Source: Serratia liquefaciens ATCC 27592 (GTDB lineage: Bacteria > Pseudomonadota > Gammaproteobacteria > Enterobacterales > Enterobacteriaceae). Taken from it: DNA of 64,000 bases. Under the pieces are notes generated by a model. The model was not told where the DNA came from and made no database searches. It saw only the letters and a program-made list of their open reading frames with translations. The translations under genes were made by a program, and so were the position numbers. Of this stretch, positions 1,144-44,309 are shown piece after piece. Where the stretch lies: contig NC_021741.1 of NCBI RefSeq assembly GCF_000422085.1, positions 3,038,001-3,102,000 of the forward strand. The letters run 5' to 3'. Position 1 is the first letter of the stretch. Each line of letters begins with the position of its first letter.

Positions 1144-1146
1144 ACA

Positions 1147-4478: not shown

Positions 4479-4503
4479 ATTACCAAAAATCTAGGAGCAC
4501 ATC

Positions 4504-4665: not shown

Positions 4666-4685
4666 CCTCTCTCGGAGTATCCCTT

Positions 4686-5159: not shown

Positions 5160-5168
5160 GATGCTGCA

Positions 5169-6839: not shown

Positions 6840-6965
6840 TGTTAGCACCATATTCGCAGAAAGAAAATTCTAACGAGTATAGGCAATGGACATACGGATG
6901 GACACAACCAATGAGGATTATATATAAAATGTGGTGGGATGGGTTGGGATGCCATAAAAAGAAAA

Positions 6966-7028
6966 GGCCCGCTCCATCTCGTCTCAACACCAATTTTTGG
7001 CATGGGTTGATAATGAGTAGAGCGAGCC
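6966..7028 (-). terminator. Probable terminator of the porin gene
   Basis: On the minus strand GGCTCGCTC (7028-7020) can pair fully with GAGCGGGCC (6974-6966, one G-U pair) and is followed by TTTTCTTTTT. The loop of about 45 bases is unusually long and contains smaller inverted repeats. Termination is therefore plausible, and the region also lies where a prophage attachment site is expected. Confidence 0.45.
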
Positions 7029-7068
7029 ACCTCGTCCCGACACAGGAAGAAGGTAATGGTGTTGAAAC

Positions 7069-8151
7069 TTAGAAACGATAGGTCAGGTTCACTGCCACGA
7101 CGTCGTCGGTGCTCAGCTTCAGTTTGTTATCGTCGTTCAACTGGTTGATTTTGTAGTCAACGTAGGTGTACATGTTTTTGTTGAAGTAGTAAGTCGCACC
7201 CACTTCCACGTATTTCACCAGATCAACATCGCCAATCCCTTCGATATCCTTGCCTTTAGACTGCACGTAGGCCAGAGAAGGACGCAGACCGTTTTCGAAC
7301 TGGTACTGGGCCACAACTTCGAAGTTCTGCGTTTTGTTGGCGAAGCCAGATACGCCATTGCCGCTGATTGGCGTCATGTTGCGCGTATCGGCGTACATGG
7401 CAGCCAGGTAAACCTGGTTGGCGTCGTATTTAATCGCTGTGGTCCAGGCCGTTGCGCTGTCGCCTTTACCGTAATCAGATTTTTTCTGATCGCTGGTGCG
7501 GTTAGAATCCGAGAATGCCGCCGCTACGCCGATACCGGAGCCGCCGATGTCCTGGTAATCCAGGGACATGCCGTAACCGTCGCCGTTCTGTTTGGTCACG
7601 CCGCGGCTGTCGCTGTCGTTTTTGCCCTGGTACTGCAACGCCAGGTTCAGGCCTTCCACCAAGCCGAAGAAGTCGCGGTTACGGTAGGTAGCCAGGCCGT
7701 TGGAGCGCGCGGTCATAAAGTTGTCGGTGTAGCTGTAGGAGTCGCCGCCGTATTCCGGCAGCATGTCGGTATAGGCTTCTGCGTCGTACACCACGCCGTA
7801 GTTACGGCCGTAGTCGAATGAACCGTAGTTGGCGAATTTCAGGCCGGCAAAGCCCAGACGGGTTTTGGTGCCGGCAGTGCCCTGCGCTTCATCGTGGTTG
7901 GCCTGGACGTTGTATTCCCACTGGCCGTAACCGGTCAGTTGGTCATTGATTTGCGTTTCGCCTTTAAAACCGAAGCGGACATAAGTCTTGTCGCCATCTT
8001 CGGATTTGTCATCGCTGAAAACATGTTTGGCGGCTACGCGACCGTACAGGTCGAGTTTATTGCCATCTTTATTATAAATTTCTGCCGCGTTGGCAAAGGA
8101 GGTCATTGCCCCTAAGGCAATAGCTAAGGCTAATACACTGCGTTTCATCAT
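7069..8151 (-). CDS. OmpC/OmpF-type general porin
   Basis: 360 aa. A signal peptide ([14 protein letters not shown]...ANA, cleavage after residue 22) is followed by the classical mature start [16 protein letters not shown]. The constriction loop L3 carries PEYGGDS (residues 132-138), followed by [20 protein letters not shown], and the chain ends in ...VAVNLTYRF with the terminal Phe needed for BAM-dependent assembly. The length fits a 16-strand trimeric porin that passes small hydrophilic solutes. L3 and the NFM...RGNG-like stretch look closer to OmpC than OmpF, but I do not commit to a symbol. It is a single gene with a long AT-rich upstream region, as expected for OmpR-controlled porins. 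Confidence 0.95.
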
Positions 8152-8187
8152 TTATTTTCCTAGATATTATAATTTTAATTTCTGCCC

Positions 8188-8218
8188 ATCACGCCCAATT
8201 TATGGTTTGGGCTGTGAT
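8188..8218 (-). promoter_or_regulatory. Hairpin in the porin mRNA leader
   Basis: ATCACGCCCAA (8188-8198) is complementary to TTGGGCTGTGAT (8207-8218) with one bulged base and an 8-base loop. It ends 36 bases before the porin start codon and has no T-tract, so it is a leader structure, not a terminator. It could affect mRNA stability or small-RNA access. Confidence 0.5.
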
Positions 8219-8416
8219 CTTTATCATTTAGTGTTTTATGAGCGCCTCTAATTAAGAAGCCATGTGACATTAGCATCATGAATCCAAACTTAAAATAAAA
8301 AAGTTCATAAAACACCGTGGATAAAGCATGTTTATTTGTAACTAAATATTACAACAAAGAGGTCAATCAACCCATTGATTCATATTGATATTTATTACAT
8401 ATCTTATAACCAATTT

Positions 8417-8439
8417 GGTGCAACGCACCATAAAGGTGC
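8417..8439. promoter_or_regulatory. NtrC-like palindrome upstream of the porin
   Basis: GCACC-ATAAA-GGTGC (8425-8439) has the form and spacing of NtrC sites at glnA (GCACC-N5-GGTGC). A preceding GGTGC (8417-8421) makes a second, interleaved inverted repeat. I see no matching sigma-54 promoter close by, so the regulator is uncertain. Confidence 0.35.
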
Positions 8440-8735
8440 AATTTAGTTTCCTTTTGTATGCTTTCCATTCGATTCATAAATACCATGAATCTTAGCATGG
8501 TTACTAATAACGTTACTTATTTCACATTTTTATCTGAGTAAAGTCATTGCGGTAATTTAGTGCGTTTCACCACGCTTTAAGCAAGTCTTTTACCGCTTCG
8601 AATAATTAAATCGATTCAAACCATCAAAAAATGACGGCAAAAATAAATTCAACATAAAATATAAGTTTCGATAGAGAGACTATAAAGAAGGGGAAGTAAC
8701 AGGAATTAGCAGCAGGATATACCACCGTTATTTAA

Positions 8736-8760
8736 GGTTGCAGCCGACATCGCTACAACC
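8736..8760 (-). terminator. Possible terminator of the ast operon
   Basis: On the minus strand GGTTGTAGC (8760-8752) pairs with GCTGCAACC (8744-8736) with one G-U pair over a 7-base loop, 41 bases after the astE stop. The following stretch TTAAATAA is only weakly T-rich, so termination may be partial. Confidence 0.4.
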
Positions 8761-8801
8761 CTAAATACTGTAAGTATAAAACCGTATTCGAAACTGGCAG
8801 G

Positions 8802-9785
8802 TTAATACAGCGTGCTGCGCGGCGCTTCAATTAGCACCATACCGGCGCGCAATCCAAGTGCGACCTGGGGATTAGGGAATAAAATCCATTCTCTGGCATG
8901 CTGAACCCGGTACTCCTCCCCCGGTTGTTCGCACAGTAACGTCCCCTGCTCCAGCTCGGTAAAGTTGGCGGTATCATCACTGAGATGCAGTTTGAACGCT
9001 TCGCTACGTTTGATCAGCGATCGCTCAACGCGGAACACCCGCAGAGCCTCTCCCATTCGCTGCGGCAAGGCTTCGCCACTGACTGCCGCCTGCAGTGCAC
9101 GGTTAATGGCCGCAAATTGCTGTAAATCATTGCTACCAAACGGCCGCGCCTTGCCCAGTTCCAGCGTACAGCTGGCGGCGCCGGCATGTTCACTGGTGAA
9201 ATTACTGAAGGTGCCGCCCGGCGCACTGTGGATCACCAACGCATCCAAATCGGCCGCGTCCAGCAATGCCAGCATCTCGGCACTGTAAGGCCCGGTCTGG
9301 AAAGGAAGAATCCCGAAGCGCGGTAAGCGTGAATCACGAATCGCCGTATGCAGATCATAATGGAAACGTGTCGCTTGCTCACCGTCGAAAAACGCGGCGA
9401 CGACCTGCTCCAGCTGCTGCGCCCGCATGGTTTCGTCGCTGTGGCTGAAATCGCGATAGCGGCCGCCAAACATCCGGTTCATGTCGCTGTGCAGGTACCG
9501 TTTATTGGCGCGCATTGACGGTGGGTTGCCCAATATCACCAGCAGCCGAACCGCCAAAGTTCGCTCGCCGCCAAGCAGATCCTTGACCAGTTGATTGAGC
9601 AGCTCAATCGGCGCCGTTTCATTGCCGTGGATCCCCGCCGACAGCACCACCGCCTGCCGGTATCCCCGGCGCGGTGTGATTTCCAGCAGGCCTTCCGCCA
9701 GCCAACGCCAGTGTAAATCCGCATTTTCGCCCCGTTGCTCTTCGGGCGTTTGCCCTTCCAGCGTCAGAGCCAACAAATCAAACAT
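8802..9785 (-). CDS. astE: Succinylglutamate desuccinylase
   Basis: 327 aa, last step of the AST pathway: N-succinylglutamate is hydrolysed to glutamate and succinate in the cytoplasm. It is an M14-type zinc hydrolase of the AstE/aspartoacylase family with ligands H53 and E56 (AGIHGNETAPIE) and H147 (HYDLHTAIR), plus the later CTLELGKARPFG segment that usually holds the catalytic Glu. The length is as expected (about 320-330). It is the last gene of a leftward astCADBE operon, 11 bases after astB. No oddities seen. Confidence 0.95.
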   Translation of the reverse strand: MFDLLALTLEGQTPEEQRGENADLHWRWLAEGLLEITPRRGYRQAVVLSAGIHGNETAPIELLNQLVKDLLGGERTLAVRLLVILGNPPSMRANKRYLHSDMNRMFGGRYRDFSHSDETMRAQQLEQVVAAFFDGEQATRFHYDLHTAIRDSRLPRFGILPFQTGPYSAEMLALLDAADLDALVIHSAPGGTFSNFTSEHAGAASCTLELGKARPFGSNDLQQFAAINRALQAAVSGEALPQRMGEALRVFRVERSLIKRSEAFKLHLSDDTANFTELEQGTLLCEQPGEEYRVQHAREWILFPNPQVALGLRAGMVLIEAPRSTLY

Positions 9786-9796
9786 GATGACATCGC

Positions 9797-11137
9797 CTAT
9801 TGTTGGAAAGGATAAACCGATCCCAGCCCGAGGATGGTCGTCAGGGTATCCAGCGCATCGCGCCCTTCACGCAGCAATTGCGGATCAGCCAAGTCGTTCT
9901 GCGTCAGACGATCTCGGTAATAGCGGTCAACCCAGTCATTGAGCGTAACGAACAGCGTATCGTTCATCATCACGCGCGGATTGACCGCCCGCAATTCCTG
10001 CTCGTTCAGCGCCACACGTAATCGCAGGCAGGCAGGCCCACCGCCATTGCGCATACTTTCACGCAGATCGAACACCTTGATTTCATCAATTGGTCCGCCA
10101 CTGGCCACCATCTCGCTCAGATAGCCCCACACGCCGCGATGCTGGCGCGACTCTTCCGGCACCACAATCATCATCTTGCCGTTAGGCTTGGTCAGAATTT
10201 GGCTGTTGAACAGATAGGTCGCTACCGCATCCGCCACGGAAACCCGCTCCGTCGGCACCTCAATCGCCACCAGTTCGCTGTCCAGCGACGCCATTTTGCG
10301 ACGCACTTCATCCAGCGCCTGCTGCTGCTGATAAAACGCTTGCTGATGGTGGAACAATACATTCTGGTTACTGACGGCGATAACGTCGTTGTGGAATACG
10401 CCCTGATCGATCACCGCCGGATTCTGTTGCACAAACACCGTATGTTGCTCATCCAACTGGTGCAGACGGGCAATCGCCTCCCCGGCCTCGCGGGTCTGGC
10501 GTGCCGGATAGCGAGTTGGGGCGATTTCTCCGCCAAACTCCTGTCGGCCGTAGACGAACATCTGCACGCTACGCTTGCCATAATCGCCGCCCAGTCGGTT
10601 GTGGTTGGCCGCGCCTTCGTCACCAAACAGCGCCACCTGCGGCAAAGCCTCATGGTGGGCGAAATGGCGTGGATCGTTGAAAATCGCCCGCAGCACGCCG
10701 GTGGTGGTCTCGGCCTCAATCGCACGATGGAATTTGTTGTTCAGATTGGCCGCGGTGAAATGCACTTTGCCATCCGCGCTGTCCGCCGAAGGTGAAACCG
10801 TGGCCGCATTGGCGGTCCACATGCAAGAAGCCGAGCTGAGCGCAGACAGCAGGCGCGGAGACTGCTTCATCGCCTGCGCCAAGACCGTTTCGTCGCTGCC
10901 GCTGAAACCCAACTTACGCAGCATCGGCAGGTGCGGTCGTTCCTGCGGCGGCAATACCCCCTGCTGAAAGCCGAGATCCGCCAGCGCCTTCATCTTCAGC
11001 AGACCCTGTTTGGCCGCCAGTTTCGGATTCGACACGCTGTTTTGATGCTGGGTCGAGGCCTCATTGCCAAATGACAACCCGGCATAGTGATGCGTCAGGC
11101 CCACCAGACCATCGAAATTGACTTCATATCCTGACAT
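9797..11137 (-). CDS. astB: N-succinylarginine dihydrolase
   Basis: 446 aa. Converts N2-succinylarginine to N2-succinylornithine, CO2 and two ammonia, the nitrogen-releasing step of the AST pathway. It belongs to the guanidine-modifying pentein superfamily. The N-terminus [20 protein letters not shown] is typical of AstB. The catalytic His is visible in [13 protein letters not shown], and the nucleophilic Cys lies in [14 protein letters not shown] near the C-terminus. The length matches the family. It is separated from astD by a 180-bp gap occupied by an ERIC-type repeat, the only large gap inside this operon. Confidence 0.96.
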
Positions 11138-32009: not shown

Positions 32010-32100
32010 GTACTCCGTGCTTAACTTGACGCCAAGCTTTCCACAAAAAAATTACAGCTATACTGAAGAGGTTATTTTATGTCCAACCCAAGGAGGCGCC

Positions 32101-33501
32101 ATGCTGGGTCTTGATGCACTGGAACTTGCCAGAATACAGTTCGCCTTCACCGTTTCTTTCCATATTATTTTTCCTGCAATCACCATAGGTTTAGCCAGTT
32201 ATCTGGCGGTGCTGGAAGGGTTATGGCTGAAAACGCGCAATGAAGCCTATCGCGATTTGTACCATTTCTGGTCAAAAATTTTCGCCGTCAACTTCGGCAT
32301 GGGCGTGGTTTCCGGGCTGGTAATGGCCTATCAGTTCGGTACCAACTGGAGCTTCTTCTCTGAGTTTGCCGGCAGTATTACCGGCCCGTTGCTGACCTAT
32401 GAAGTGCTGACCGCCTTCTTCCTCGAAGCCGGTTTCCTTGGGGTGATGCTGTTCGGTTGGAACCGCGTCGGGCCAGGGTTGCACTTCTTCGCGACCTGCA
32501 TGGTGGCGCTGGGCACCCTGATTTCCACCTTTTGGATCCTGGCTTCCAACAGCTGGATGCAAACGCCGCAGGGCCACGAAATCATCAACGGCCAGGTGGT
32601 ACCGGTCGACTGGCTGAAAGTGATATTCAACCCGTCATTCCCCTACCGTCTGTTGCACATGTCGACCGCCGCCTTCCTGTCTTCGGCCTTCTTCGTGGGC
32701 GCTTCCGCCGCCTGGCACCTGTTGCGCGGGCGTGATACGCCGGCAATGCGCAAAATGCTGTCGATGGCGATGTGGATGGCGCTGATCGTCGCGCCGGTAC
32801 AAGCCCTGATTGGTGATGCGCACGGCCTGAATACGCTGAAGTACCAACCGGCGAAGATTGCCGCCATTGAAGGCCACTGGGAAAACCCGCCGGGAGAGGC
32901 CACGCCGCTGATCCTGTTCGGTTGGCCGGACATGGAGCGTGAAGAGACTCGCTTCAAGCTGGAAGTGCCCTATCTTGGCAGCCTGATCCTGACTCACAGC
33001 CTGACCGAACAGGTCCCGGCGCTGAAATCCTTCCCGCCGGAAGATCGCCCCAACTCCACCGTGGTGTTCTGGTCGTTCCGCATCATGGTGGCGCTCGGCA
33101 TGCTGATGATCCTCGCTGGGGTGTGGAGCCTGTGGCTGCGCTGGCGCGGCGGGCTGTACCAGTCGCGTCCCTTCCTGTACTTCATCCTGTGGATGGGGCC
33201 ATCGGGGCTGCTGGCGCTGCTGGCGGGTTGGTTCACCACCGAAATCGGCCGACAGCCGTGGGTGGTCTATGGCCTGCTGCGTACCAAAGATGCGGTCTCT
33301 GCGCACGGTGATTTGCACATGAGCATCAGCCTGCTGGCGTTTATCATCGTTTACTGTTCGGTGTTCGGCGTGGGCTACTCCTACATGATGCGTCTGATCC
33401 GTAAGGGACCGCAGCAGCATGAAAGCCATGAAGACGACACGGACGGCAGACCGGCTCGCCCGCTGTCTGCGGTAAAAGAAACTCTGGATGACAGGAGCTG
33501 A
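32101..33501 (+). CDS. cioA: Cyanide-insensitive (CIO) cytochrome bd-type quinol oxidase, subunit I
   Basis: 466 aa from the ATG at 32101, behind AAGGAGGCGCC. Binds the three hemes. Early His ligand in ARIQFAFTVSFHIIFPAITI; the quinol site GRQPWVVYGLLRTKDAVS is present. The Q-loop between helices VI and VII is short, which together with the overall length (CydA is over 500) places it in the CIO/short-Q-loop class rather than E. coli CydA. Such oxidases are often cyanide-tolerant and low in heme d. Multi-pass inner membrane protein. Forms an operon with cioB (2-base gap) and a DUF2474 gene. Confidence 0.92.
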   Translation: MLGLDALELARIQFAFTVSFHIIFPAITIGLASYLAVLEGLWLKTRNEAYRDLYHFWSKIFAVNFGMGVVSGLVMAYQFGTNWSFFSEFAGSITGPLLTYEVLTAFFLEAGFLGVMLFGWNRVGPGLHFFATCMVALGTLISTFWILASNSWMQTPQGHEIINGQVVPVDWLKVIFNPSFPYRLLHMSTAAFLSSAFFVGASAAWHLLRGRDTPAMRKMLSMAMWMALIVAPVQALIGDAHGLNTLKYQPAKIAAIEGHWENPPGEATPLILFGWPDMEREETRFKLEVPYLGSLILTHSLTEQVPALKSFPPEDRPNSTVVFWSFRIMVALGMLMILAGVWSLWLRWRGGLYQSRPFLYFILWMGPSGLLALLAGWFTTEIGRQPWVVYGLLRTKDAVSAHGDLHMSISLLAFIIVYCSVFGVGYSYMMRLIRKGPQQHESHEDDTDGRPARPLSAVKETLDDRS

Positions 33502-33503
33502 GC

Positions 33504-34511
33504 ATGGGCATTGATCTTCCGTTGATTTGGTTTGTGATCATCGTGTTCAGCACCATGATGTACGTGGTAATGGACGGCTTTGATTTGGGTATCGGTATCC
33601 TGTTCCCCTGGGTCAAGGACAGCGGTGACCGCGATGTGATGATGAACACCGTCGCACCGGTGTGGGACGGCAACGAAACCTGGCTGGTACTGGGCGGTGC
33701 GGCGCTGTTTGGCGCCTTCCCGTTGGCCTACGCGGTGATCCTCGATGCGCTGGCCATCCCGCTCACCCTGATGCTGTTCGGGTTGATTTTCCGCGGCGTG
33801 GCCTTTGAATTTCGCTTCAAGGCCAAGGAAGAAAAGCGGCATATCTGGGATAAGGCGTTTATCTGGGGCTCTCTCTTCGCCACCTTCAGTCAGGGGGTGG
33901 TGGTGGGTGCCATCATCAACGGCTTCCCGGTCAACGGCCGTAGCTATGCCGGTGGTGCTCTAGACTGGCTGACGCCGTTCGCGCTGTTTTGCGGGTTGGG
34001 GCTGGTGGTGACCTATGCACTGCTGGGCTGTACCTGGCTGGTGATGAAGACCGCCGGGGATCTGCAGGCACGCATGTATCGGTTGGCAACGCCGCTGCTG
34101 ATCACTCTGCTGCTGGTGTTGGCGGTGGTCAGTATCTGGACGCCGATTGCCCATCCCGAGATCGCCAGCCGCTGGTTTACGTTGCCAAACCTGTTCTGGC
34201 TGCTGCCGGTGCCGGTATTGGTGTTGCTCAGCGCCTGGGGTATCCAGCGCGGCGTGAAAAACGCGGCGCACTATTCGCCGTTCTTGCTGACCCTGCTGCT
34301 GGTGTTCCTCGGCCTGAGCGGCTTGGGCATCAGCATCTGGCCGCTGTTGATCCCACCGTCCATCACCCTGTGGGACGCCGCAGCCCCACCGCAAAGCCTG
34401 GGCTTTATGCTGGTCGGCGCGCTGTTTATCATCCCGATTATCTTGGTCTACACCTTCTGGAGCTACTACGTGTTCCGCGGCAAGGTCAGCCATGAACAGG
34501 GTTACCACTGA
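33504..34511 (+). CDS. cioB: Cyanide-insensitive (CIO) quinol oxidase, subunit II
   Basis: 335 aa, CydB/CioB family: N-terminal MGIDLPLIWFVIIVFSTMMY, the conserved VMDGFDLGIGILFPWV and APVWDGNETWLVLGGAALFG, and about eight to nine transmembrane helices. It holds no heme itself and pairs with subunit I. Directly follows cioA; a small membrane subunit gene follows after 14 bases. Confidence 0.93.
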   Translation: MGIDLPLIWFVIIVFSTMMYVVMDGFDLGIGILFPWVKDSGDRDVMMNTVAPVWDGNETWLVLGGAALFGAFPLAYAVILDALAIPLTLMLFGLIFRGVAFEFRFKAKEEKRHIWDKAFIWGSLFATFSQGVVVGAIINGFPVNGRSYAGGALDWLTPFALFCGLGLVVTYALLGCTWLVMKTAGDLQARMYRLATPLLITLLLVLAVVSIWTPIAHPEIASRWFTLPNLFWLLPVPVLVLLSAWGIQRGVKNAAHYSPFLLTLLLVFLGLSGLGISIWPLLIPPSITLWDAAAPPQSLGFMLVGALFIIPIILVYTFWSYYVFRGKVSHEQGYH

Positions 34512-35296: not shown

Positions 35297-36397
35297 TCAG
35301 CTGGGCTTACGCCCCATAGCGCTGAGAAAACGTTGCTGTAACCGCAGCAGCTCCCTCAGTTCAAGGACCCGATAATCAATGCCAAAACGCGGGGCAACCT
35401 CTTCAATGATGCGACTCAATGCCGGGTAGTGCCGGTGATTCCAATGGGGAAACAGGTGGTGCGTCAGGTGCAGGTTAGCCCCGCCAAGCCAATACCCCAG
35501 CCACGCCGGTGAAGCTTGCCAGTCAAAGGTGGTGGCAAAAACGTGCTGATACCAACCGTGCGCCAACCTTCCCTGTTCGGGGGCCTGATAAAAGTTGGCT
35601 TTGGCCCAGTGGGTGCCGACAATCAGCATCACAAACACCAGCGACGACAGCATCTGGCTGAGCAGATAGGTCAGTAACACCGTGCCGACACCGATCGTCG
35701 GCGGCGTGAGCCACAGCGGAACGGCCAGCGCCAGGGTAAAATGCGCCAGCTTGCCCAACAGGAAAATCCCCCATCCCTTCCGGCCATGGAACATCATCTT
35801 TGGCGTCATGCGGGTTTTACCGGCGCGATCCAACCAGTCGAACAACCAGATGTAATAAGGGAAAGTCAGCGCCGCGACGATCGGCCAATAGTAAGGCTGA
35901 AGGCGCATAAACGCCTTGCGGTGCTGGAACGGCGTTTGGCGCAACACCCCGTTGGGTTCAATGTCCGGATCGTAACCTTCGATGTTGTTATAGGCGTGGT
36001 GGAAAATGACATGCCGCACTCGCCAGCAGTCGGCATCCAGCCCCAGGGGCATACTGACAAAGAAGTTAAGCCAGTGATTTAACCGTGCGCGTTTGAAAAC
36101 GGCATTATGCGAGGCGTCGTGTACTACATTCACCGTTAGCATCATGGCGGAAAAAATAAAGCCGACGTAACAGCCGAAATAGCCCCAGAAATGTTGCTGC
36201 TGCAGGCTCAGCGCGTAAAAACCGGCGCACAGCAGTATTAGCGCCAACAGCTTGGCGAACATTCTGCCGTCGGCAAAACGGTGATCGCCGCGCGTCGCCA
36301 GGTAGGCCTGGCTAGCCCGCATCAGCTCCTGATGGATCTCACTCGCCTCTCGCTGGAACGCCAAAGGCGGCAGCGGTGTGGTATCCGGCATTTTCAT
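35297..36397 (-). CDS. Membrane fatty acid desaturase (paralogue 2)
   Basis: 366 aa. Three histidine clusters of the FADS family: HDASH at 93-97, HVIFHH at 129-134 (HxxxHH) and HLTHH in LHLTHHLFPHWNHRHYPALS near residue 315. About four to six transmembrane helices. It would introduce a double bond (or act as a related di-iron oxygenase) on an acyl chain at the inner membrane. It is clearly a duplicate of the next upstream gene (shared FRQTPFQ/LRQTPFQ, YWPI/YWPL and FDW.DR.GKT stretches). Last gene of an eight-gene coupled operon; its start overlaps the previous stop (ATGA). Confidence 0.88.
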   Translation of the reverse strand: MKMPDTTPLPPLAFQREASEIHQELMRASQAYLATRGDHRFADGRMFAKLLALILLCAGFYALSLQQQHFWGYFGCYVGFIFSAMMLTVNVVHDASHNAVFKRARLNHWLNFFVSMPLGLDADCWRVRHVIFHHAYNNIEGYDPDIEPNGVLRQTPFQHRKAFMRLQPYYWPIVAALTFPYYIWLFDWLDRAGKTRMTPKMMFHGRKGWGIFLLGKLAHFTLALAVPLWLTPPTIGVGTVLLTYLLSQMLSSLVFVMLIVGTHWAKANFYQAPEQGRLAHGWYQHVFATTFDWQASPAWLGYWLGGANLHLTHHLFPHWNHRHYPALSRIIEEVAPRFGIDYRVLELRELLRLQQRFLSAMGRKPS

Positions 36398-37485
36398 TGT
36401 GGTGGCTGCCCCATAGCACGTAAAAAACGTTGCTGCTGTCGCAACAATTCACGATAACCGATACAGCGATAATCCATGCCGTGTCGCGCCGCCGTCTCAG
36501 CCAATATGGCAGCCAGCGCCGGATAATGGCGATGATTCCAGCCGGGGAACAGATGATGAGTAAGGTGATAATTCAGCCCGCCGGTCAGATGGTGCAAGCT
36601 CTTCGGCGAAGTTTCCCAGTCGCAGGCGGTGGCGAAGTTATGCCGATACCAGCCCTGCGGCATCTGGCTGCCTGCCGGCACCGCATAAAATTCGGCTTGC
36701 GCCCAGTGCGTGCCCAACAGCAAAAAAACCACCAGTAACGAGGCCAGCATTTGGCTAATCAAATAGGCAATCAGTACCGTTTGCCAGCCGATGCCATTTT
36801 GTTGTGCCACCACCAGCGGGATCACCAGCACCAGCAACAGGTGACACAATTTCCCGGCAATGAACATTGCCCAGCCCTTACGCCCCGGCAATACGTCCTT
36901 GGTCACCAACGGTGTTTTGCCCAAGCGATCCGACCAATCGAACACCAGCGCAATGTACGGCAGCGACAGCGCGGCAATCAGCGGCCAGTAAAGATGTTGA
37001 TAGCGCATATAAGCCCGCCAACGTTGGAACGGGGTTTGGCGGAAAAAGCCGTTCTCTTCCGTATCCAGATCGTAATGTTCGACGTTGGCATACACATGGT
37101 GATAGCTGACGTGCCGGGTTCGCCAGTAATCCGGATCGACGCCCAGCGGCAAAGTCACCAGCCGCCCGGCCAGACGATTGACCCACGGCGTGCGGGCGAA
37201 GGCGTTGTGCGAAGCATCGTGATTAACGTTGACGTTCAGCAACATGCCCATCATGACAAAAGCGAAGTAACTCAGCATAAAGGCCAGAGCCTGGTGCTGC
37301 ACCAAACTGAGCAGGTAGAAGCCAACGCAAAGCAGCAACAAAATCGTGGCCTTGGCCCAACGGGCCGCATCGGCAAAGCGGTGATCGTCGCGACCGCTCA
37401 GATAAGCATGCGCCCGTCGTTTCAATTCCCGATGAAACGCCTGTTCCCCCGCGACGGGGAAACTCAGCGGCGGCAAATCAGCCAT
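36394..37485 (-). CDS. Membrane fatty acid desaturase (paralogue 1)
   Basis: 363 aa from the ATG at 37485, chosen for its AGGAGG ribosome site. His boxes HDASH (89-93), HVSYHH (125-130) and HLTHH (in YHLTHHLFPGWNHRHYPALA). Same architecture as the downstream desaturase, so a tandem duplication followed by divergence is likely; the two may act at different positions of one acyl chain. Overlaps the fatty acid hydroxylase gene by 8 bases. Confidence 0.88.
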   Translation of the reverse strand: MADLPPLSFPVAGEQAFHRELKRRAHAYLSGRDDHRFADAARWAKATILLLLCVGFYLLSLVQHQALAFMLSYFAFVMMGMLLNVNVNHDASHNAFARTPWVNRLAGRLVTLPLGVDPDYWRTRHVSYHHVYANVEHYDLDTEENGFFRQTPFQRWRAYMRYQHLYWPLIAALSLPYIALVFDWSDRLGKTPLVTKDVLPGRKGWAMFIAGKLCHLLLVLVIPLVVAQQNGIGWQTVLIAYLISQMLASLLVVFLLLGTHWAQAEFYAVPAGSQMPQGWYRHNFATACDWETSPKSLHHLTGGLNYHLTHHLFPGWNHRHYPALAAILAETAARHGMDYRCIGYRELLRQQQRFLRAMGQPPQ

Positions 37486-38596
37486 ACGCGGCCTCCTTTT
37501 GGCGTCCCCAACCGACCGTGACAGCGCAACCGTGCAACACCATGCCACCGGCTACGCACCACCAGAGAGCAGACTGCCCATCGGGCATGCTCAATAACCA
37601 CAGGGGGAATGCCAACGTCACCAACAGCCAAACGCCTACGCCCCAGCGGCGACCTTCAGCCATCCCACCCAAGGCTATCGCCCCGGCCGCCAACAACACA
37701 AACAACGCCGCCTGCTCGCCGGTCACCCCGCCATACCCGTAACCAAAACGATAAACGTAACCCAACACCAGAGCGAACAGCAGCATCGCCCCGCTTACCA
37801 GGCAGCCGGCGGAACAGCGGAAATGCCCGCTCTTGCTCGAAGGCTGGAAAGGCAGCTTGAAGTAGCGCATAAACGGCAGGTTACTGGCCCAAAACGGGTT
37901 GGCGGAAGATTTGTCGCCACGCACGCCATAGGTAAAGGGCTCCGTCGGCAGCGCCGGGCAAAAGGTGCCAAACAGCTTGTCCCAGAAGATAAAGCTGCCG
38001 CCAAAATTCCGGTTGGAATAGGCCAAATCTTTAACGTGGTGCACCCGATGATGCGCCGGTGTCACCAGGATGTGCTCCAGAAAGCCGAGTTTGGGGGTTA
38101 CCGAATTATGGTTAAACAGTTGAATGCTGTAATGCAGGATAGAAACGGTGATGAACACCGACAGCGGCACGCCCGCCAATGCCAACAGCATAAAGAACGG
38201 GATCGAGGTCAGTGACGAATACCACGAGTTGCGCACGCCCAGCGACAGATTGAAATGCTCGCCCTGGTGATGCACCACATGCACCGCCCACAGCAGGCGA
38301 AAACGGTGGTGTAACCGGTGCAGCCAGTAAAAGCCGAAATCCCACGCCAGTATCGCAAACAGCCACATCAGCACCGGCGGCCAACCGTCCAGCCAGCCTT
38401 GATTAAAATGCGTGACCACGTAGCCGTAGCAGGCTATCTCCAAACCGCGAAACAGCCACAGCATGATATGCCCGGAGTTGAGGTTGAAAATCACGTCATG
38501 CCAATCCACGCTGCCCTTGCGCCGCCACTGTAGCCACAGGGCTTCCCCCAGCACCACCAACAGCATAAACACGATAGGTATCACCAGATCGATCAT
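37478..38596 (-). CDS. Sterol desaturase / fatty acid hydroxylase superfamily protein
   Basis: 372 aa with the start at 38596 (GGAAGAG upstream). The di-iron histidine pattern is complete: HRLHH, HVVHH (in WAVHVVHHQGEHFNLS), then HNSVTPKLGFLEHILVTPAHHRVHH with HH.VHH. The C-terminal about 120 residues add four more hydrophobic helices. Family members hydroxylate or desaturate lipid tails or sterols at the membrane; a bacterial acyl-chain hydroxylase is most likely here. Coupled to neighbours by 4- and 8-base overlaps. Confidence 0.87.
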   Translation of the reverse strand: MIDLVIPIVFMLLVVLGEALWLQWRRKGSVDWHDVIFNLNSGHIMLWLFRGLEIACYGYVVTHFNQGWLDGWPPVLMWLFAILAWDFGFYWLHRLHHRFRLLWAVHVVHHQGEHFNLSLGVRNSWYSSLTSIPFFMLLALAGVPLSVFITVSILHYSIQLFNHNSVTPKLGFLEHILVTPAHHRVHHVKDLAYSNRNFGGSFIFWDKLFGTFCPALPTEPFTYGVRGDKSSANPFWASNLPFMRYFKLPFQPSSKSGHFRCSAGCLVSGAMLLFALVLGYVYRFGYGYGGVTGEQAALFVLLAAGAIALGGMAEGRRWGVGVWLLVTLAFPLWLLSMPDGQSALWWCVAGGMVLHGCAVTVGWGRQKEAAYG

Positions 38597-39210
38597 GACT
38601 CTTCCCCCTGCCGTACGCCCCAGCCAATCCCTTGAACTCGCTGGCAGACGTAGCCCACGCCCCATGCCAACGCCGCCCCACTGAGCAAATCCACAAACAG
38701 GTGCCGACGCAGTTGCAAGATAGAAAAGGCAATCGCCAGCCCCCAGACGATCAGCAACGCGCTGCGCAGTTTTTTGCGGCTTTCCGCCGCTGCCCACACC
38801 GCCAACACCGTCAAGGCGATATGCAGTGAAGGCAGGCAGTTTTGCGACGAATCGACGCTGATCAACCTCGCCAGTAAATCGCCGCTCACCGAATCGGACG
38901 GAACGATCGGGTAGTTCATCGTCGTCGGCCACAGCAGATAAATGGCTCCCGCCAGCAAGGCGCTAAGCTGCATGGTACTTCTGAGCCATTTTAACCGGTT
39001 TAACGGGCAAAGCAGATAGCACAGCGGGATAATCAGGAAAAACGACAGATACAGCCAGATGGCGTGCGGGCTGAACGGGATCGCTCGGTCGACCCAACCT
39101 GGTGTCAGCAGGTGGCCGGCACCTTGCCAGCGATCGCTACCGTGGTAGATGACCCCGACAAATCCCCACCCCAGCAGCATCTGCCATAAGCGATAAACAA
39201 CGAGTTTCAT
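38593..39210 (-). CDS. PAP2-type lipid phosphatase
   Basis: 205 aa, start at 39210 with GGAGG. About five transmembrane helices. PAP2 motif remnants: NCLPSLHIALT (PSxH) and LQLRRHLFVDLLSGAALAWG (SRxxxxxHxxxD-like, with the catalytic His and Asp). The first PAP2 motif (KxxxxxxRP) is not clear, so it may be a divergent InsP-type member. It would remove phosphate from a lipid phosphate, or act as a lipid phosphotransferase. ATGA overlaps on both sides. Confidence 0.75.
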   Translation of the reverse strand: MKLVVYRLWQMLLGWGFVGVIYHGSDRWQGAGHLLTPGWVDRAIPFSPHAIWLYLSFFLIIPLCYLLCPLNRLKWLRSTMQLSALLAGAIYLLWPTTMNYPIVPSDSVSGDLLARLISVDSSQNCLPSLHIALTVLAVWAAAESRKKLRSALLIVWGLAIAFSILQLRRHLFVDLLSGAALAWGVGYVCQRVQGIGWGVRQGEES

Positions 39211-40493
39211 CCGGCCTCCGGCATGCGAACAATGCGGCGACGCTTGGCATCGAACTGCGGCATGATCGCCTGCGCTTGCAGGCGCCACGTCAATTGCTCC
39301 GTAGCAATACCTTGCTGTTCGAACAGCGCGATCAATTGCCGTTGGCAATTCGCCAACGCCTCCGGGTTGCAATCGGCCATCAGATGCAGCTCGCTGTCGC
39401 CCCGTTGCGTCAGCCGATAATCCGCCACCGCCGGCAACGCATTGGCTATCACGCGGCGACACAGGTCCGCGAAGACCCGCTGCATGGCGCCCTGCCTGGC
39501 CGGTAACAGCAGTTGGTCATCGCAGCGCCCTTCGATACGATCCAATGCCATGGTCGCCAGCCCGCAGGGACAGGGCTGTTCGCGCCTCACCAGAATATCG
39601 TCCAGGCGATAACGCACTATCGGTTGGGTACGGCGGGTAAAATCGGTAATCAACGGGATAAAACGCCGCTCGTCGATCCACTGCGGTTCGACATGAATAA
39701 ACTCTTCGTTCAGATGCAAAGTGCCGTGGCTACAGGTCGCGGCCAAAAAACCTTCGGTGGCTTGATACACTTCTCCCACCTGCGCAAACGCCCGCTGCAG
39801 GCGCTGGCGATCCTGCGGTTCCAGCACTTCGGCCACTGAAATCACTTTTTTGACGCTGAGCTTGAGTTCGCCGCCTTCAACGGCATCAGCCAGGGCGCAC
39901 AATACCTGGGCCGGGGCCACGATAATCGTCGGCTGTTCACGTTCAATCTGCGGCAAATGTTCGGCAAAGGGAGCGAACAGATCGTAAAACGACAGGCTCA
40001 GCCAACGGTTATTGACGCTGTGGTACAGGTTGTTGTCGGCCCGCAGGAACAGCGCGACCTTCTCCCCGGCAAACACCCCCTGCGGCAACATTTTTGCCAG
40101 CATGCCCCCGGCCCAAATCTGCTGCTCCTGCGGGCTGACGACGAACACGCCGCGCCGCCCAGAGGTACCGGTAGATAAACCGACGCTGTAGTTGCCCACT
40201 TTAGGGCTGAAATCGCGATCGCTTTCGCTGCGCCGGGCACAGGCCAAAAGCGCCTCCAATCGCAGACCGGCGGTGTTCATCCGATCGAAATTGGCCATCA
40301 TCACCGCCTTGTCCATCGTTGGCCACGCGGTCAGAGGCAATGAACTATAGGGCTGATAATAGGGACTGTTCGCCAATACGCGCTGGGCAAACCGCTTCAG
40401 CTGGCGCGCCTGATAGGCCTCCAGCGCCGCCCGTTGGGTAAAGCGCAGTCGCCGCGCGCGCAGGTAGTGCCATAACGTCATCAGCGGGATCAT
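39207..40493 (-). CDS. PaaK/F390-synthetase-like adenylate-forming enzyme
   Basis: 428 aa. Adenylation motifs: the P-loop GLSTGTSGRRGVF, the A5-like YQATEGFLA, and the A7-like PIVRYRLDDILVRREQ followed by a CPCG pair seen in PaaK/CoF-synthetase relatives. N-terminal ...QLKRFAQRVLANSPYYQ is also typical. It should activate a carboxylic acid as acyl-AMP, with CoA, an amine or an internal hydroxyl as acceptor. In this operon it could activate the product of the KAS III-like enzyme. It is not an OleC-type ANL enzyme by length, but could do analogous chemistry. Confidence 0.82.
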   Translation of the reverse strand: MIPLMTLWHYLRARRLRFTQRAALEAYQARQLKRFAQRVLANSPYYQPYSSLPLTAWPTMDKAVMMANFDRMNTAGLRLEALLACARRSESDRDFSPKVGNYSVGLSTGTSGRRGVFVVSPQEQQIWAGGMLAKMLPQGVFAGEKVALFLRADNNLYHSVNNRWLSLSFYDLFAPFAEHLPQIEREQPTIIVAPAQVLCALADAVEGGELKLSVKKVISVAEVLEPQDRQRLQRAFAQVGEVYQATEGFLAATCSHGTLHLNEEFIHVEPQWIDERRFIPLITDFTRRTQPIVRYRLDDILVRREQPCPCGLATMALDRIEGRCDDQLLLPARQGAMQRVFADLCRRVIANALPAVADYRLTQRGDSELHLMADCNPEALANCQRQLIALFEQQGIATEQLTWRLQAQAIMPQFDAKRRRIVRMPEAG

Positions 40494-41296
40494 AAATCCC
40501 CCTCATGACACAGGCGGATCTCCGCAGCGCCGCCAAGATAGAGCTGGTTGAGCGCGCCCAGGGTGTCGTAATAGCTGCGCGGATTGTCCATGATCAGGTT
40601 AGCCAACCGCGAAGGGCCACGCAGTTGCTGATAGTTCAGCGGCGACCAGGCGGCATCGCTGGCCAGCAGCGTCCAACCGGCATCGGTCAGGACAAAGGCC
40701 CCAAGGTGCCCGGCGGCGTGCCCCGGCAGCGGCACGATAACAATTTCTCCACCGCTGCCCGGCAGCACATAGCCCTGTTGGAAGGGGGCCAATGCGGCAG
40801 GCAGGCTTTGCTGCGGAAATGCCTCGACGAACTGCAGCGCAGATTCAAAACCTTCCGGGATCAATCCTGGCACAAACGCCCTTTTCAACGCGGCAAAACC
40901 GCGCAGCTCTCGGGTTTGCTGCCACCCTTCGCCGGAGCAAATCATCTTCAGGCTGCTGAAGTCTCGCAGACCGGCAATGTGGTCCGCATGAAAGTGCGAA
41001 ATGATCACCGCCTCGATATCGCCAGTGTTCAGCCCCAGACTGCGCAACTGTTCCAACAGTGCCTGCTGCGGACTGAAATAAACCGGCGTCACCTGGCGAT
41101 AAAGCCGAAAAATGCCGCTGGCGGTGTAATGTTCAAAATGGCTGGCATAACCGGTATCCCACAGCCAGCGGCGCTCGCCAACTTCCAGCAGATAGGCCCG
41201 GGAAGGAAATTTACAAGTGCGCATCGCCGAACCGCGCAGCGCCATGCAGCCCAGATGAGTGCAATAACCGATTTCAAAGGTCGTGATATTAGCCAT
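40490..41296 (-). CDS. Metallo-beta-lactamase fold hydrolase
   Basis: 268 aa. Zinc motif HFHADH at 101-106, with further ligands in LPGHAAGHLGAF and ASDAAW, and a C-terminal His in RLCHEGD. The layout (long N-terminal region before the first ligand, no signal peptide) resembles AHL-lactonase/thioesterase-like members. In the operon it may hydrolyse a thioester or lactone intermediate, the place taken by OleB in olefin clusters. Substrate unknown. Overlaps both neighbours (4 and 8 bases). Confidence 0.85.
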   Translation of the reverse strand: MANITTFEIGYCTHLGCMALRGSAMRTCKFPSRAYLLEVGERRWLWDTGYASHFEHYTASGIFRLYRQVTPVYFSPQQALLEQLRSLGLNTGDIEAVIISHFHADHIAGLRDFSSLKMICSGEGWQQTRELRGFAALKRAFVPGLIPEGFESALQFVEAFPQQSLPAALAPFQQGYVLPGSGGEIVIVPLPGHAAGHLGAFVLTDAGWTLLASDAAWSPLNYQQLRGPSRLANLIMDNPRSYYDTLGALNQLYLGGAAEIRLCHEGDL

Positions 41297-42305
41297 CTGC
41301 GCTCATCCCCTGCTGCTTTAACCATTGCGCCGTCAGTTCGATCCCCTGCTCCAGGCTGTAGCGCGGCCGGTAACCCAGCACCTCTATCGCCTGGGTATTA
41401 TCCAGCGTCATGTCGAAATAGGCTGCCGCAACGCTATAGCGGGTCAGCATCGGTTCTTTACGGGTGACGTGCGCCAACAGCTCCATCCCCGCCGCAACGC
41501 CCGACAATAAGGGATAAGGCACCGCTTTGACGGCGTATTGCCAGCCCAGCTGCCGGTTGAGCAACTGGTGCAACATATCGGCCAGCCGCTGCGGCTGTTG
41601 GTTGGTGATATTGAAAATGCTGCCGGACGGCAAACCTGGTTGACGGCTGGCGAGATCCATCGCATGCACCACGTTGAGCACAAAGGTAAGGTCCAGATAA
41701 GCCGAACCGCCGCCCGGCAAACGCAACAGGCCTTTATCGCCCTGCAGCTGCGCCAGTATCCTGGGCACAATCACCCGGTCATGGGGGCCGAACAGGCCGC
41801 GAGGGCGCAAGATCAGGTAGGTGGTTTGCGGATAATCAGGCAGCAGCGCCGCAATACGTTGCTCGGCAGCAAACTTACTGGCGGCATAGTGATTGGCAAA
41901 GCGTGGGGAAACATCCGCTTCGGTCACGTTGTGACGATGACTGAAATCGAAATAAACCGCCGGCGTCGAAATATGAATGAACCGCTGCACTGCGCAACGT
42001 CCGGCGGCATGGGCCAGTTTTTCCGTCACGCGGGTATTGGCTTGATAAAATGCCTGGCGGCTCCCCCAGGGAGAAGATTTTGCGGCGCAGTGCCAGACAA
42101 TATCGTAGCCCGCCATTAACTGCTCACACTGCCCGTCGTCGGCGAGGGTCAGATCCAGCGCGGTAAACTTGGCGCCCCGTGCCGCCAACTGCCGTCCAAC
42201 GGCAACGTCCCGCCCGGTGGCATGCACCTGATGCCCGGCGGCCAGCAGCCACTCGGCGGCGTTGCGCCCCAGCCCGCTGGTCGCTCCGGTGATCAACACT
42301 CTCAT
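41289..42305 (-). CDS. NAD(P)-dependent epimerase / 3-beta-HSD-like reductase (OleD-like)
   Basis: 338 aa extended SDR. Rossmann motif GATSGLGRN at 7-15; active site Tyr140-x3-Lys144 (NHYAASKFAAEQR); substrate region RPRGLFGPHDRVIVPRILAQ. These are the features of the 3-beta-hydroxysteroid dehydrogenase subgroup to which OleD (2-alkyl-3-oxoalkanoate reductase) belongs. It could reduce the beta-keto product of the neighbouring KAS III-like enzyme. Start overlaps the KAS III stop by four bases. Confidence 0.82.
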   Translation of the reverse strand: MRVLITGATSGLGRNAAEWLLAAGHQVHATGRDVAVGRQLAARGAKFTALDLTLADDGQCEQLMAGYDIVWHCAAKSSPWGSRQAFYQANTRVTEKLAHAAGRCAVQRFIHISTPAVYFDFSHRHNVTEADVSPRFANHYAASKFAAEQRIAALLPDYPQTTYLILRPRGLFGPHDRVIVPRILAQLQGDKGLLRLPGGGSAYLDLTFVLNVVHAMDLASRQPGLPSGSIFNITNQQPQRLADMLHQLLNRQLGWQYAVKAVPYPLLSGVAAGMELLAHVTRKEPMLTRYSVAAAYFDMTLDNTQAIEVLGYRPRYSLEQGIELTAQWLKQQGMSADG

Positions 42306-43309
42306 GGCAGCAGTACCATGCCGCCCAGCGTTAAACCGGCGGCGGTGCCGATCAGCATCACCGGACGTCCGGCGTGCAGCCTGCCGGTGATCGCCGCTTG
42401 GTGCAGGGTCGAAGGGATCGAAGCCGCCACCTGATTGCCCCGATAACGATAGATATCCACCAGGGCCTGCGGGGAAACGTGCAGCCGCTTGCGCATATGT
42501 TCCAAAGAGAGATGGCTGGCCTGATGCGGTACCACGGTGGCGATTTGCGCCAGGTTTAGCCCCGCAGCCGACAACAAGCGGCCAAGGAAGCTTTCGATCA
42601 GCGCCGACGCCTGGCGGAACAGCTGCTTGCCCTTCATATGGAACAGAAAGTCACTGTCGTTCATGCCGGCACGCGGATTACAGCGCGTCCCCCCAGCCCT
42701 GATTTCACACAGATCGCTGCCTTCCGGGTGGGTTTCCATCAGGTAGGACAAAATACCGCTACGCCCGTCACCGCGTTCGACAATGGCACAGGCCGCGCCA
42801 TCACCGAAGATCAATGAAGACTCTTCGTCTTCCCAGTCGATACCGCGCGAAGCAATATCGGCAGAGACAATGGCAATACGCCGATAAACACCCGTATTGA
42901 GTAACCCCGCCGCCACCTGCAATGCGGAAATAAAGCTCACGCAGCTGGTGTTGATATCAAAGCCCGCAATACCCGGCCGCAGTCGTGCCAGTTTAAGAAT
43001 ATGGGCGGCGCTGAAAGGCAATGCCTGCACCGCGATGGCCGAGGCAGAGATCAGCAGATCGATGGAATCTCGCGGGATCGCATGGCGGGCAAGAGCATCG
43101 TCCAGCGCGGCAACGGCCAGTTCAGCCTGGCTGGCATCATTGTCGGCATGGAAACGATGAATAATGCCCGAACGTTTTTCTACGTAACCTGCCGACTTGT
43201 TCAAGCGACGGTCCAGCGCCGAGGATTCGACGCACTGCGGCGGCAACGCCGCGCCGGTCGCAATAATTTTAAGAGGCAATAAGCTTTGGGAAAGGCTATT
43301 TAGGGTCAT
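42302..43309 (-). CDS. KAS III-like beta-ketoacyl synthase (FabH/OleA-like)
   Basis: 335 aa thiolase-fold enzyme with the full Cys-His-Asn triad: C123 (DINTSCVSFISAL), H262 (VVPHQAS) and N292 (RGNQVAAS). The usual GDGAAC and C-terminal GTAAGLTLGGMVLL motifs are present. It is not the housekeeping FabH, because it sits at the head of an eight-gene operon with no other fab gene or acyl carrier protein. It probably condenses an acyl thioester with malonyl-ACP or with a second acyl thioester (as OleA). First gene of the operon; 322 bases separate it from nar. Confidence 0.85.
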   Translation of the reverse strand: MTLNSLSQSLLPLKIIATGAALPPQCVESSALDRRLNKSAGYVEKRSGIIHRFHADNDASQAELAVAALDDALARHAIPRDSIDLLISASAIAVQALPFSAAHILKLARLRPGIAGFDINTSCVSFISALQVAAGLLNTGVYRRIAIVSADIASRGIDWEDEESSLIFGDGAACAIVERGDGRSGILSYLMETHPEGSDLCEIRAGGTRCNPRAGMNDSDFLFHMKGKQLFRQASALIESFLGRLLSAAGLNLAQIATVVPHQASHLSLEHMRKRLHVSPQALVDIYRYRGNQVAASIPSTLHQAAITGRLHAGRPVMLIGTAAGLTLGGMVLLP

Positions 43310-43631
43310 TATCGTTGTTCAGCCTGTGTGTCCATTATTCCGTTGGCCGACGCTCAAGCGCGGTTAATGATTCAAACCCCGCTATCCACAGCCACACCCT
43401 TGTTTGACATCAGTATAAAGAAAAACCTAAGTGGCATTCTTACTGATTGATTCCGTTCATTTAACTGAGCCGATAAATCACGTCTGTTTATCCGGCCACA
43501 GCCTAGAGCAAGGTCGAACGGAGATCTACAGGAACTCACTCAGGGGAGATGAATTAAGAATAGGTGGAAAACAACGGAGAAGCAGAAAAGCGGCAACACC
43601 TGGCAGGCATTGCCGCTATGTAGGCGAGGAA
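43310..43631. other. Intergenic region between the lipid operon and narI
   Basis: 322 bp with no gene seen. Its right end holds the nar terminator (43589-43617). The rest must contain the promoter of the lipid operon (minus strand). A TATACT lies near 43411-43416 on the minus strand but its -35 is poor, so I do not assign a promoter. No regulatory palindrome stood out. Confidence 0.5.
43589..43617 (-). terminator. Terminator of the nar operon
   Basis: On the minus strand AGCGGCAA (43617-43610) pairs with TTGCCGCT (43596-43589) and is followed by TTTTCTGCTT, 15 bases after the narI stop. Confidence 0.65.
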
Positions 43632-44309
43632 TTAACGGCGGTTACGCACCAATTGGTAGCGACGGGTCAGGTATTCCACCGGCACACTCCAGATATGCAC
43701 CAGGCGGCAGAACGGGAACAGCACGAACAGCGTCATGCCCAGCACCATATGCAATTTGAAGATCAACGCAACGCCGGTCAAATGCTGTGACGCCCCGGCG
43801 TGGAAAGTCACCACTGCCTGCGCCCAGGCCACCAGCTTCATCATCTCGCTGCCGTCCATATGCTGGGCGGAGAACGGAATGGTCAGCAACCCCAGACACA
43901 CCTGCACCACCAACAGCGTCAGGATCATGATGTCGGCAAAGCTGCTGGTGGCCCGCACTCGTGGGTTGGTCAGGCGGCGTTTCAGCAACAGCGCCCCGCC
44001 AACCAGCGTCATCACGCCGCAGGCACCGCCGGCGATCATCGCCAGTTTCTGTTTCACGTCGATCGGCAGGAAGGCTTCATACATCCAGTGCGGCGTCAGC
44101 ATGCCGAGGAAGTGCCCGGCGAAAATACCCAAAATACCGATATGGAACAGGTTGGAAGCCAACCGCATGCCCCTTTTATCCAGCATTTGGCTGGAGCCGG
44201 CACGCCAGCTGTACTGCCCGTAATCGTAACGCAACCAGCTGCCTATCAGGAAAATCGCTCCCGCCAGATAGGGGTAAATATCGAAGAAGAATTGATTTAA
44301 AAATTGCAT
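43632..44309 (-). CDS. narI: Respiratory nitrate reductase 1, gamma subunit (cytochrome b)
   Basis: 225 aa, five transmembrane helices. Takes electrons from menaquinol/ubiquinol through two b hemes to NarH. Visible family features: N-terminal [20 protein letters not shown], the heme-ligand histidines in [20 protein letters not shown] and in the last helices ([24 protein letters not shown]), and the basic end. Last gene of narGHJI, 2 bases after narJ, followed by a terminator. Confidence 0.96.

Follow-up and report, generated by a model that had tools for sequence, protein, structure and literature searches.

Which product does a compact operon of lipid-type enzymes make in Serratia liquefaciens ATCC 27592? 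The window analysed here, a stretch of 64,000 nucleotides (contig NC_021741.1 of assembly GCF_000422085.1, positions 3,038,001-3,102,000), carries eight overlapping genes on its minus strand at positions 35297-43309, and a previous sequence-only reading had described them as one operon for an unassigned lipid or beta-lactone-like product. We found that the first four genes form a core that recurs in the same order in many other genomes, and that other sets of genes can take the place of the last four behind this core. On this pattern of gene content we read the operon, with moderate confidence, as a dedicated pathway for a lipid or lipid-like metabolite, in which a fixed four-enzyme core would be combined with an exchangeable tail.

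Organization of the operon

An open reading frame (ORF) check revealed eight complete, stop-free reading frames, and all seven junctions between them overlapped, by 4, 8, 4, 4, 4, 8 and 4 bases in the order from the first gene to the last. These values apply to ATG starts; the longest-ORF starts of the fifth, sixth and seventh genes lay upstream of the overlapping ATGs, and the ATG starts were adopted for the overlaps. The claims that every junction overlaps by 4 or 8 bases and that the eight genes form one operon were thus borne out, and the family assignments made from the letters alone agreed with Pfam and NCBIfam.

The core comprises a 3-ketoacyl-acyl carrier protein synthase (KAS) III-like condensing enzyme of 335 aa (42302-43309), an extended short-chain dehydrogenase/reductase (SDR) of 338 aa that resembles OleD, 3-beta-hydroxysteroid dehydrogenase and NSDHL (41289-42305), a metallo-beta-lactamase (MBL)-fold hydrolase of 268 aa that resembles N-acyl homoserine lactone (AHL) lactonase and pyridoxolactonase (40490-41296), and an F390-synthetase-related, PaaK-like adenylate-forming enzyme of 428 aa (39207-40493), called the F390-like protein below. 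The remaining genes, here termed tail A, encode a PAP2 superfamily membrane protein of 205 aa (38593-39210), a fatty acid hydroxylase/sterol desaturase superfamily protein of 372 aa assigned by Pfam and NCBIfam (37478-38596), and two membrane fatty acid desaturases assigned by Pfam, desaturase 1 of 363 aa (36394-37485) and desaturase 2 of 366 aa (35297-36397), which are paralogues with 52% mutual identity. None of the eight proteins matched an acyl carrier protein (ACP) family in Pfam, as had been stated before.

Conservation of the core and diversity of the tails

A scan of genome contigs with the F390-like protein found 368 relatives, of which the best 80 were taken as the main locus set; tails were scored with score thresholds and a rough purpose-made ORF caller rather than from curated annotation. 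The KAS, SDR, MBL and F390-like genes were present in the same order and on the same strand in all 80 loci. Tail A (PAP2, hydroxylase and desaturase) followed in 58 loci, in 52 of them alone and in six together with a second type of tail, and these 58 loci contained either two desaturases (37 loci) or one (21 loci). The second type, tail B, is marked by a GT21 glycosyltransferase and was found in 16 loci, alone in 10 and after tail A in the other six. All 16 tail B loci had a second SDR gene after the F390-like gene, 15 encoded a weakly matching GT28/GT1-like protein, and 12 contained a protein of 180-200 aa termed c15. The GT21 assignment was supported by a score of 120.5 bits (cut-off 21.7); the nearest NCBIfam model was HpnI (91.1 bits, cut-off 310). 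Two further loci ended with their contig after the PAP2 and hydroxylase genes, and 10 had no downstream tail. The synteny check therefore upheld the proposed unit for its first four genes, whereas the last four proved to be one of several exchangeable tails.

The c15 protein has 180-215 aa (for example, L073 13351-13944 and L114 6181-6828) and accompanies GT21 beside the core, in Enterobacteriaceae as well as in Fusobacterium. The copies tested had no Pfam or NCBIfam match; a conserved Ser and His suggest that c15 may be an alpha/beta hydrolase.

We also opened 24 further loci, consisting of 16 of the 43 plasmid-collection records found and eight genomes. The four core genes were together in 22 of these and in the same order in 21; the KAS gene was the last of the core in a Fusobacterium locus, and three loci had an ATP-grasp gene between KAS and SDR. 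The genes around these cores differed in kind: a sulfotransferase gene stood beside the core in three loci and a DUF3419 gene, presumably of the BtaA betaine-lipid family, in two, and ATP-grasp proteins (below cut-off in L125), GNAT proteins and Rieske oxygenases were among the extra genes. The Fusobacterium locus carried GT21 together with a c15 homologue (65.4 bits to the c15 profile), and its 19 kb contained no relative of the hydroxylase or desaturases of the window. This is as expected for an anaerobe, since these enzymes need oxygen. The tail families observed (GT21 with GT28/GT1-like proteins, sulfotransferase, DUF3419, ATP-grasp/GNAT, and PAP2_3 with hydroxylase and desaturases) would fit a role in changing the head group or the chain of a lipid.

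The four core proteins had closely correlated distance matrices (r = 0.96-0.97 over 103 rows), and for each pair none of 500 permutations gave a value as high; when the rows were restricted to the window and the 80 loci, r was 0.87-0.93. On a tree of the core, the tail types required at least 13 changes, a count made without a shuffle control on a FastTree phylogeny in which several long branches were flagged, with tail labels assigned by hand, six rows left unlabelled and the two contig-end loci counted as tail A. From this number of changes, the tails seem to have been exchanged on a stable core. In 19 of the 80 loci, narI was the gene directly upstream of KAS; 13 of these had tail A or another arrangement, three had tail B and three had both; that loci with different tails share this neighbour suggests exchange at one ancestral site.

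Active sites of the core enzymes

Residues were counted in an alignment of the window and 103 loci (104 rows). The KAS protein contained the ACP_syn_III and ACP_syn_III_C domains with a Cys-His-Asn triad, which places it in the KAS III (FabH) superfamily; the residues C123, H262 and N292 were those named by the sequence-only reading. The Cys was kept in all 102 readable rows (two gaps), and the His and Asn in all 104. Among solved structures, the nearest was 4v2p, which we take to be MxnB (142.6 bits), and 4yuc (CorB) was third (133.7 bits), while FabH scored 133.8 bits. As a separate observation, the KAS of Pseudomonas caricapapayae (L033 7155-8200) was split into two frames (152 and 338 bits), possibly a broken gene or a sequencing error.

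The SDR residues S113, Y140 and K144 were invariant in 104 rows, and the nearest solved relative was NSDHL. The seven metal ligands of the MBL-fold hydrolase (HxHxDH-H-D-H) were likewise kept in every row, and its nearest solved relatives were mostly lactonases. The F390-like protein scored 593.6 bits against TIGR02304 (cut-off 251.9) and belongs to this family, whose name says no more than 'F390 synthetase-related'. Its K417 was present in all 104 rows, and T110, G112, D284 and R294 in 102, 102, 99 and 101 rows, respectively. Such near-invariance of the catalytic residues indicates an enzyme set under selection rather than a decaying cluster.

Features of the tail A proteins

The PAP2 protein passed both the PAP2 and the PAP2_3 cut-offs of Pfam, so that its superfamily is certain and its reaction undecidable by sequence alone. 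The PSLH and RH-x3-D motifs were kept in 67 of 67 rows. The K-x6-RP motif was found in none of 72, and the protein thus lacks the full motif set of PgpB/LPP-type lipid phosphatases (K-x6-RP, PSGH and SRx5Hx3D; motif names partly from the available portion of PMC5798408). Sphingomyelin synthases likewise lack K-x6-RP, according to the same portion of that paper. With this motif missing, the PAP2 protein may transfer a head group instead of acting as a phosphatase. Of the suggestion that the last four genes would tailor an acyl chain and remove phosphate, the presence of lipid-type enzymes was supported, and phosphate removal is less secure. PAP2_3 also includes phosphatases.

Eleven histidines of the hydroxylase were kept in 63 of 63 rows, and its sole NCBIfam match was OlsE at 80.6 bits, far under the cut-off of 475. 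Membrane desaturases and OlsE-like hydroxylases can modify acyl lipids. Profile searches of solved structures with the PAP2 protein, the hydroxylase and the desaturases gave nothing useful.

Distribution and genomic context

The TIGR02304 family was rare over broad samples: with the genome of the window included, proteins over the cut-off occurred in nine genomes when 197 of the order were sampled, in two when 369 of the class were sampled and in seven when 398 of the phylum were sampled, and Deinobacterium chartae alone passed among 14 control genomes. The core was nevertheless present in Pseudomonadota, Bacillota and Fusobacteriota, and in Ketogulonicigenium it lies on a conjugative plasmid. 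A phage origin was rejected, since a search of 50,697 phage records with the F390-like protein gave no match at E 1e-20 and neither KAS nor the F390-like protein matched a PHROG.

The closest named relatives of the operon were from Serratia. Its own genome encodes a single TIGR02304 protein and one desaturase-family gene beyond the two of the operon. GT21 matches elsewhere in this genome were limited to two weak ones (38 and 27 bits), which sit inside frames of 873 and 876 aa and so do not represent tail B. A second OleD-like SDR was noted at G000:C1:1671459-1672436 (136 bits to the OleD model, cut-off 580).

Upstream of the operon, narI (43632-44309, minus strand) lies 322 bases from the KAS gene and is regarded as context, not as part of the pathway. 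A terminator-like hairpin of 13 pairs on the same strand (43589-43617) is a hint that the operon is not transcribed by read-through from narGHJI, although one such site is not above chance (0.6, sd 0.8, in shuffled sequences). Downstream, on the plus strand at 32017-34511, translations read by eye showed two adjacent membrane proteins resembling a cytochrome bd-type oxidase pair.

A seven-gene version in Escherichia coli

The E. coli version of the operon has seven genes (KAS, SDR, MBL, F390-like, PAP2, hydroxylase and one desaturase) and, in the two records opened, lies between narI and purU; the copy of LF82 occupies L120 6001-12882. Of 5426 complete E. coli genomes, in a type of collection that leans to clinical strains, 671 contained all seven genes and 672 the core, at a coverage of at least 80%. 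The carriers listed include the Nissle derivative NissleGFP_pZE21, ATCC 25922, JJ1886, ST131 strains and LF82, as well as ABU 83972 (core); we take these carriers to belong to phylogroup B2. In the eight operon-bearing rows listed, 96-100% of a query spanning narI to the purU side was matched. The genomes of K-12 MG1655, BL21 and O157:H7 had narI and an RtT RNA or tRNA-Tyr within about 1.1-1.2 kb, which represents the empty site. The control E. coli genome contained no FA_desaturase family protein, which makes a desaturase in other E. coli strains notable in itself. Separately, the record L107 (NZ_CP141085.1, E. coli KE48) is a 385-kb 'plasmid' that bears narGHJI, purU, galU and hns beside the operon and is therefore probably a piece of chromosome.

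Proposed pathway

From the gene content, overlaps, families, catalytic residues and core/tail pattern, all of which were computed here, we infer every chemical step, the order of the steps and the product as follows. The core would make and activate a beta-hydroxyacyl chain, and the tails would modify this chain or add a head group. The KAS III-like enzyme would condense an acyl thioester with a malonyl- or beta-ketoacyl-thioester to a beta-ketoacyl thioester, from which the MBL hydrolase would free the beta-keto acid by cleaving a thioester or a lactone. The OleD/NSDHL-like SDR would then reduce the beta-keto acid to a beta-hydroxy acid. The PaaK-like enzyme would adenylate the carboxylate and pass the acyl group to a hydroxyl, an amine, CoA or its own beta-hydroxyl; in the last case, a beta-lactone is a possible product. 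In the window, tail A would afterwards hydroxylate and desaturate the chain, and the PAP2 protein would transfer or remove a phosphate-containing head group. This route of condensation, release, reduction and adenylation was proposed because the SDR is near NSDHL and OleD, the MBL hydrolase is near lactonases and the ligase is expected to activate a carboxylate. NSDHL and OleD enzymes act on beta-hydroxy or beta-keto acids.

A bolder and doubtful extension is that the core defines an undescribed class of bacterial lipids with a KAS III-derived hydroxylated backbone, on which lineages would swap phospho, glycosyl, sulfo, betaine-like and aminoacyl heads and a hydroxylated or desaturated chain. 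Such a lipid would be a nitrogen-free counterpart of ceramide, made unnoticed by part of E. coli, Nissle and ST131 included. An apparently undescribed, complete enzyme set is in any case carried by roughly one in eight of the complete E. coli genomes, among them the derivative of a probiotic and a strain used as a standard in quality control. Should its product be a lipid, this lipid would be missing from E. coli lipidomes that rest on K-12. The combination of a fixed core with swapped tails also amounts to a natural experiment, in which whatever the products have in common should identify the core product.

Several observations weigh against a dedicated core-plus-tail lipid pathway. The 10 loci without a downstream tail (nine from Xenorhabdus, four of them with an upstream PAP2 gene, and one from Snodgrassella) suggest that genes elsewhere may complete the core product, or that this product may itself be final. 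The four core genes were spread over about 10 kb on one Pseudomonas megaplasmid, and a stretch of another record of this kind held the F390-like gene alone. Many tails are still unread, as 8 of 20 scanned proteins that flank distant cores (3 of 10 and 5 of 10) had no Pfam match. Finally, KAS scored nearly as high to FabH as to MxnB and CorB, and it could use primers other than fatty acyl chains.

For reference, the irregular megaplasmid loci (pMPPla107, pBASL58) were L113, with the F390-like gene alone at 8968-10266, and L133, with the core dispersed among hypothetical proteins at 1-9245. We also noted proteins of 589 and 536 aa without a Pfam match directly after the core (L128 9697-11466 and L132 9289-10899).

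Alternative explanations

The operon could instead be an olefin or beta-lactone pathway of the Ole type, which we consider unlikely. The order of the chemical roles matches, two OleD models were the best NCBIfam matches of the SDR (139.8 and 139.6 bits), and the MBL family includes lactonases. Two Ole clusters served as controls: L121 and L122 both passed the OleD model (641-642 bits). For L121, a pass of the OleC model (1007.6 bits) and an OleA of the PRK09258 type were further evidence, whereas L122 was accepted on the alignment and the OleD score. In OleA, the catalytic Glu stands directly before a Pro (E117 in X. campestris); this Glu is called essential and is present in all but two of the proteins aligned, as given in the portion of PMC7064751 that was available. 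At this position, KAS had Leu in 94 rows (L97 in the window), Ile in eight and a gap in two, so that all 102 readable rows had replaced the Glu; both OleA controls had Glu, and the FabH of the same genome had Phe. The window KAS scored 95.4 bits against the OleA model NF006720 (cut-off 285), compared with 463.2 bits for the OleA of L121, to which it was 25% identical. The SDR, at 139.6 bits, was far under the OleD cut-off (NF042422, 580 bits). The six NCBIfam matches of the F390-like protein did not include the olefin beta-lactone synthetase models NF045785 and NF045786, and BLASTP revealed no significant similarity between it and the OleC of L121. The OleB of L121 is a haloalkane-dehalogenase-like alpha/beta hydrolase, whereas the operon hydrolase has the MBL fold with HxHxDH, and none of the eight genes was OleB-like. 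Membership in OleA, OleB, OleC and OleD was accordingly rejected. The earlier parallel with OleA-D-B-C survives in the logic of condensing, reducing, activating and hydrolysing and fails for KAS, which is not of the OleA type; the ligase and the hydrolase are likewise not of the OleC and OleB kinds.

We judge equally improbable a signal or antibiotic pathway, in which KAS would make a pyrone- or lactone-like small molecule in the manner of PpyS, MxnB and CorB, the MBL lactonase would turn it over and the tail would decorate it. The ranking of MxnB and CorB among solved relatives of KAS and the AHL-lactonase-like hydrolase suit this explanation, as do the patchy distribution, with the conjugative plasmid of Ketogulonicigenium, and a major facilitator superfamily protein (L125) and an outer-membrane efflux protein (L128) near two distant cores. 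In addition, the catalytic Glu of PpyS and OleA is absent from KAS, as it is from MxnB and CorB (PMC4578411, available portion). However, the similarity to FabH is almost equal, no exporter or receptor gene was found from narI to the end of the operon, and the desaturases, hydroxylase, PAP2 and GT21 would better suit membrane lipids.

It is less probable still, and in our view very unlikely, that the eight genes merely remodel the acyl chains of ordinary phospholipids, for example in cold adaptation, without a new class of product. The membrane desaturases and the hydroxylase with its weak OlsE match would be capable of this; however, the core occurred without desaturases or hydroxylase in 20 of the 80 loci (10 with tail B alone and 10 tailless), the distant tails differ in kind, and KAS, the MBL hydrolase and the adenylating enzyme would be needless. 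Chance adjacency of unrelated genes, which would draw on broad superfamilies that are each common alone, is refuted for the four core genes and has a negligible probability given the order in 80 of 80 loci, the overlaps, the correlated distances and the spread over several phyla.

Comparison with known systems

No description of the eight-gene set was found in open-licence papers, in the portions available, although an account elsewhere could be missed; to that extent, the statement that no described pathway has this set was upheld. The name 'coenzyme F390 synthetase' does occur elsewhere. One of 91 transposon mutants with reduced virulence of the kiwifruit pathogen P. syringae pv. actinidiae had its insertion in a gene of this name (IYO_RS29540), which could not be tied to the operon (PMC9823363); in Acinetobacter, the protein appears in a phenol study, which in its available part does not describe it as belonging to such an operon (PMC5501837); and in P. 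aeruginosa it is a mere line of a table (PMC5467263). Several candidate systems were rejected. The ladderane clusters of anammox bacteria contain radical SAM enzymes, divergent FabF copies and phytoene-desaturase-like proteins according to the available part of PMC2649909, and none of these was among the eight genes; thus, neither ole nor ladderane clusters, the two comparisons proposed earlier, match the operon. In P. syringae, the Pbo cluster likewise combines a KAS III with adenylation domains, yet it is of the nonribosomal peptide/polyketide synthase type with other genes (PMC8473136, as excerpted).

As for the KEGG number attached to the Acinetobacter 'coenzyme F390 synthetase', we take it to be that of phenylacetate-CoA ligase. 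Polyyne clusters were rejected as well, because an ACP and an acyl-AMP ligase would be required. Flexirubin and dialkylresorcinol clusters share a KAS III-like enzyme with the operon, and the F390-like protein weakly matched FlxY, the PaaK-like ligase of flexirubin clusters (24.3 bits, cut-off 520); unlike these clusters, the eight genes include none for an ACP, an aromatase or an aromatic starter.

The enzymes that finish sphingolipids include the ceramide glucosyltransferase GT21, the inositol phosphorylceramide (IPC)/sphingomyelin synthase branch of PAP2, a ceramide hydroxylase and a desaturase. The tails use a similar set, namely Glyco_transf_21, a PAP2_3 protein without K-x6-RP, a fatty acid hydroxylase and fatty acid desaturases. 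In contrast to sphingolipid systems, no serine palmitoyltransferase-like gene was present among the eight, and the nearest model of GT21 was HpnI. The IPC and sphingomyelin synthases transfer a phospho-head group between lipids, and what the PAP2 protein appears to share with them is the missing first motif.

The pyrone ketosynthases MxnB, CorB and PpyS have the KAS III fold in common with the operon KAS, and the lack of the Glu extends to MxnB and CorB; on the other side, no SDR-MBL-F390 core is mentioned for them in the available portion of PMC4578411, and FabH is nearly as close. With the OleABCD olefin and oleADC beta-lactone pathways, as described in the available portion of PMC7064751, the operon shares a thiolase-superfamily condensation, an OleD-like SDR, an activation by an ANL-superfamily enzyme and a hydrolase. 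It differs from them in having Leu-Pro or Ile-Pro in place of Glu-Pro in KAS, a TIGR02304/PaaK-like ligase, an MBL hydrolase and the extra tail genes. The operon may therefore work like OleA-D-C without being an Ole system.

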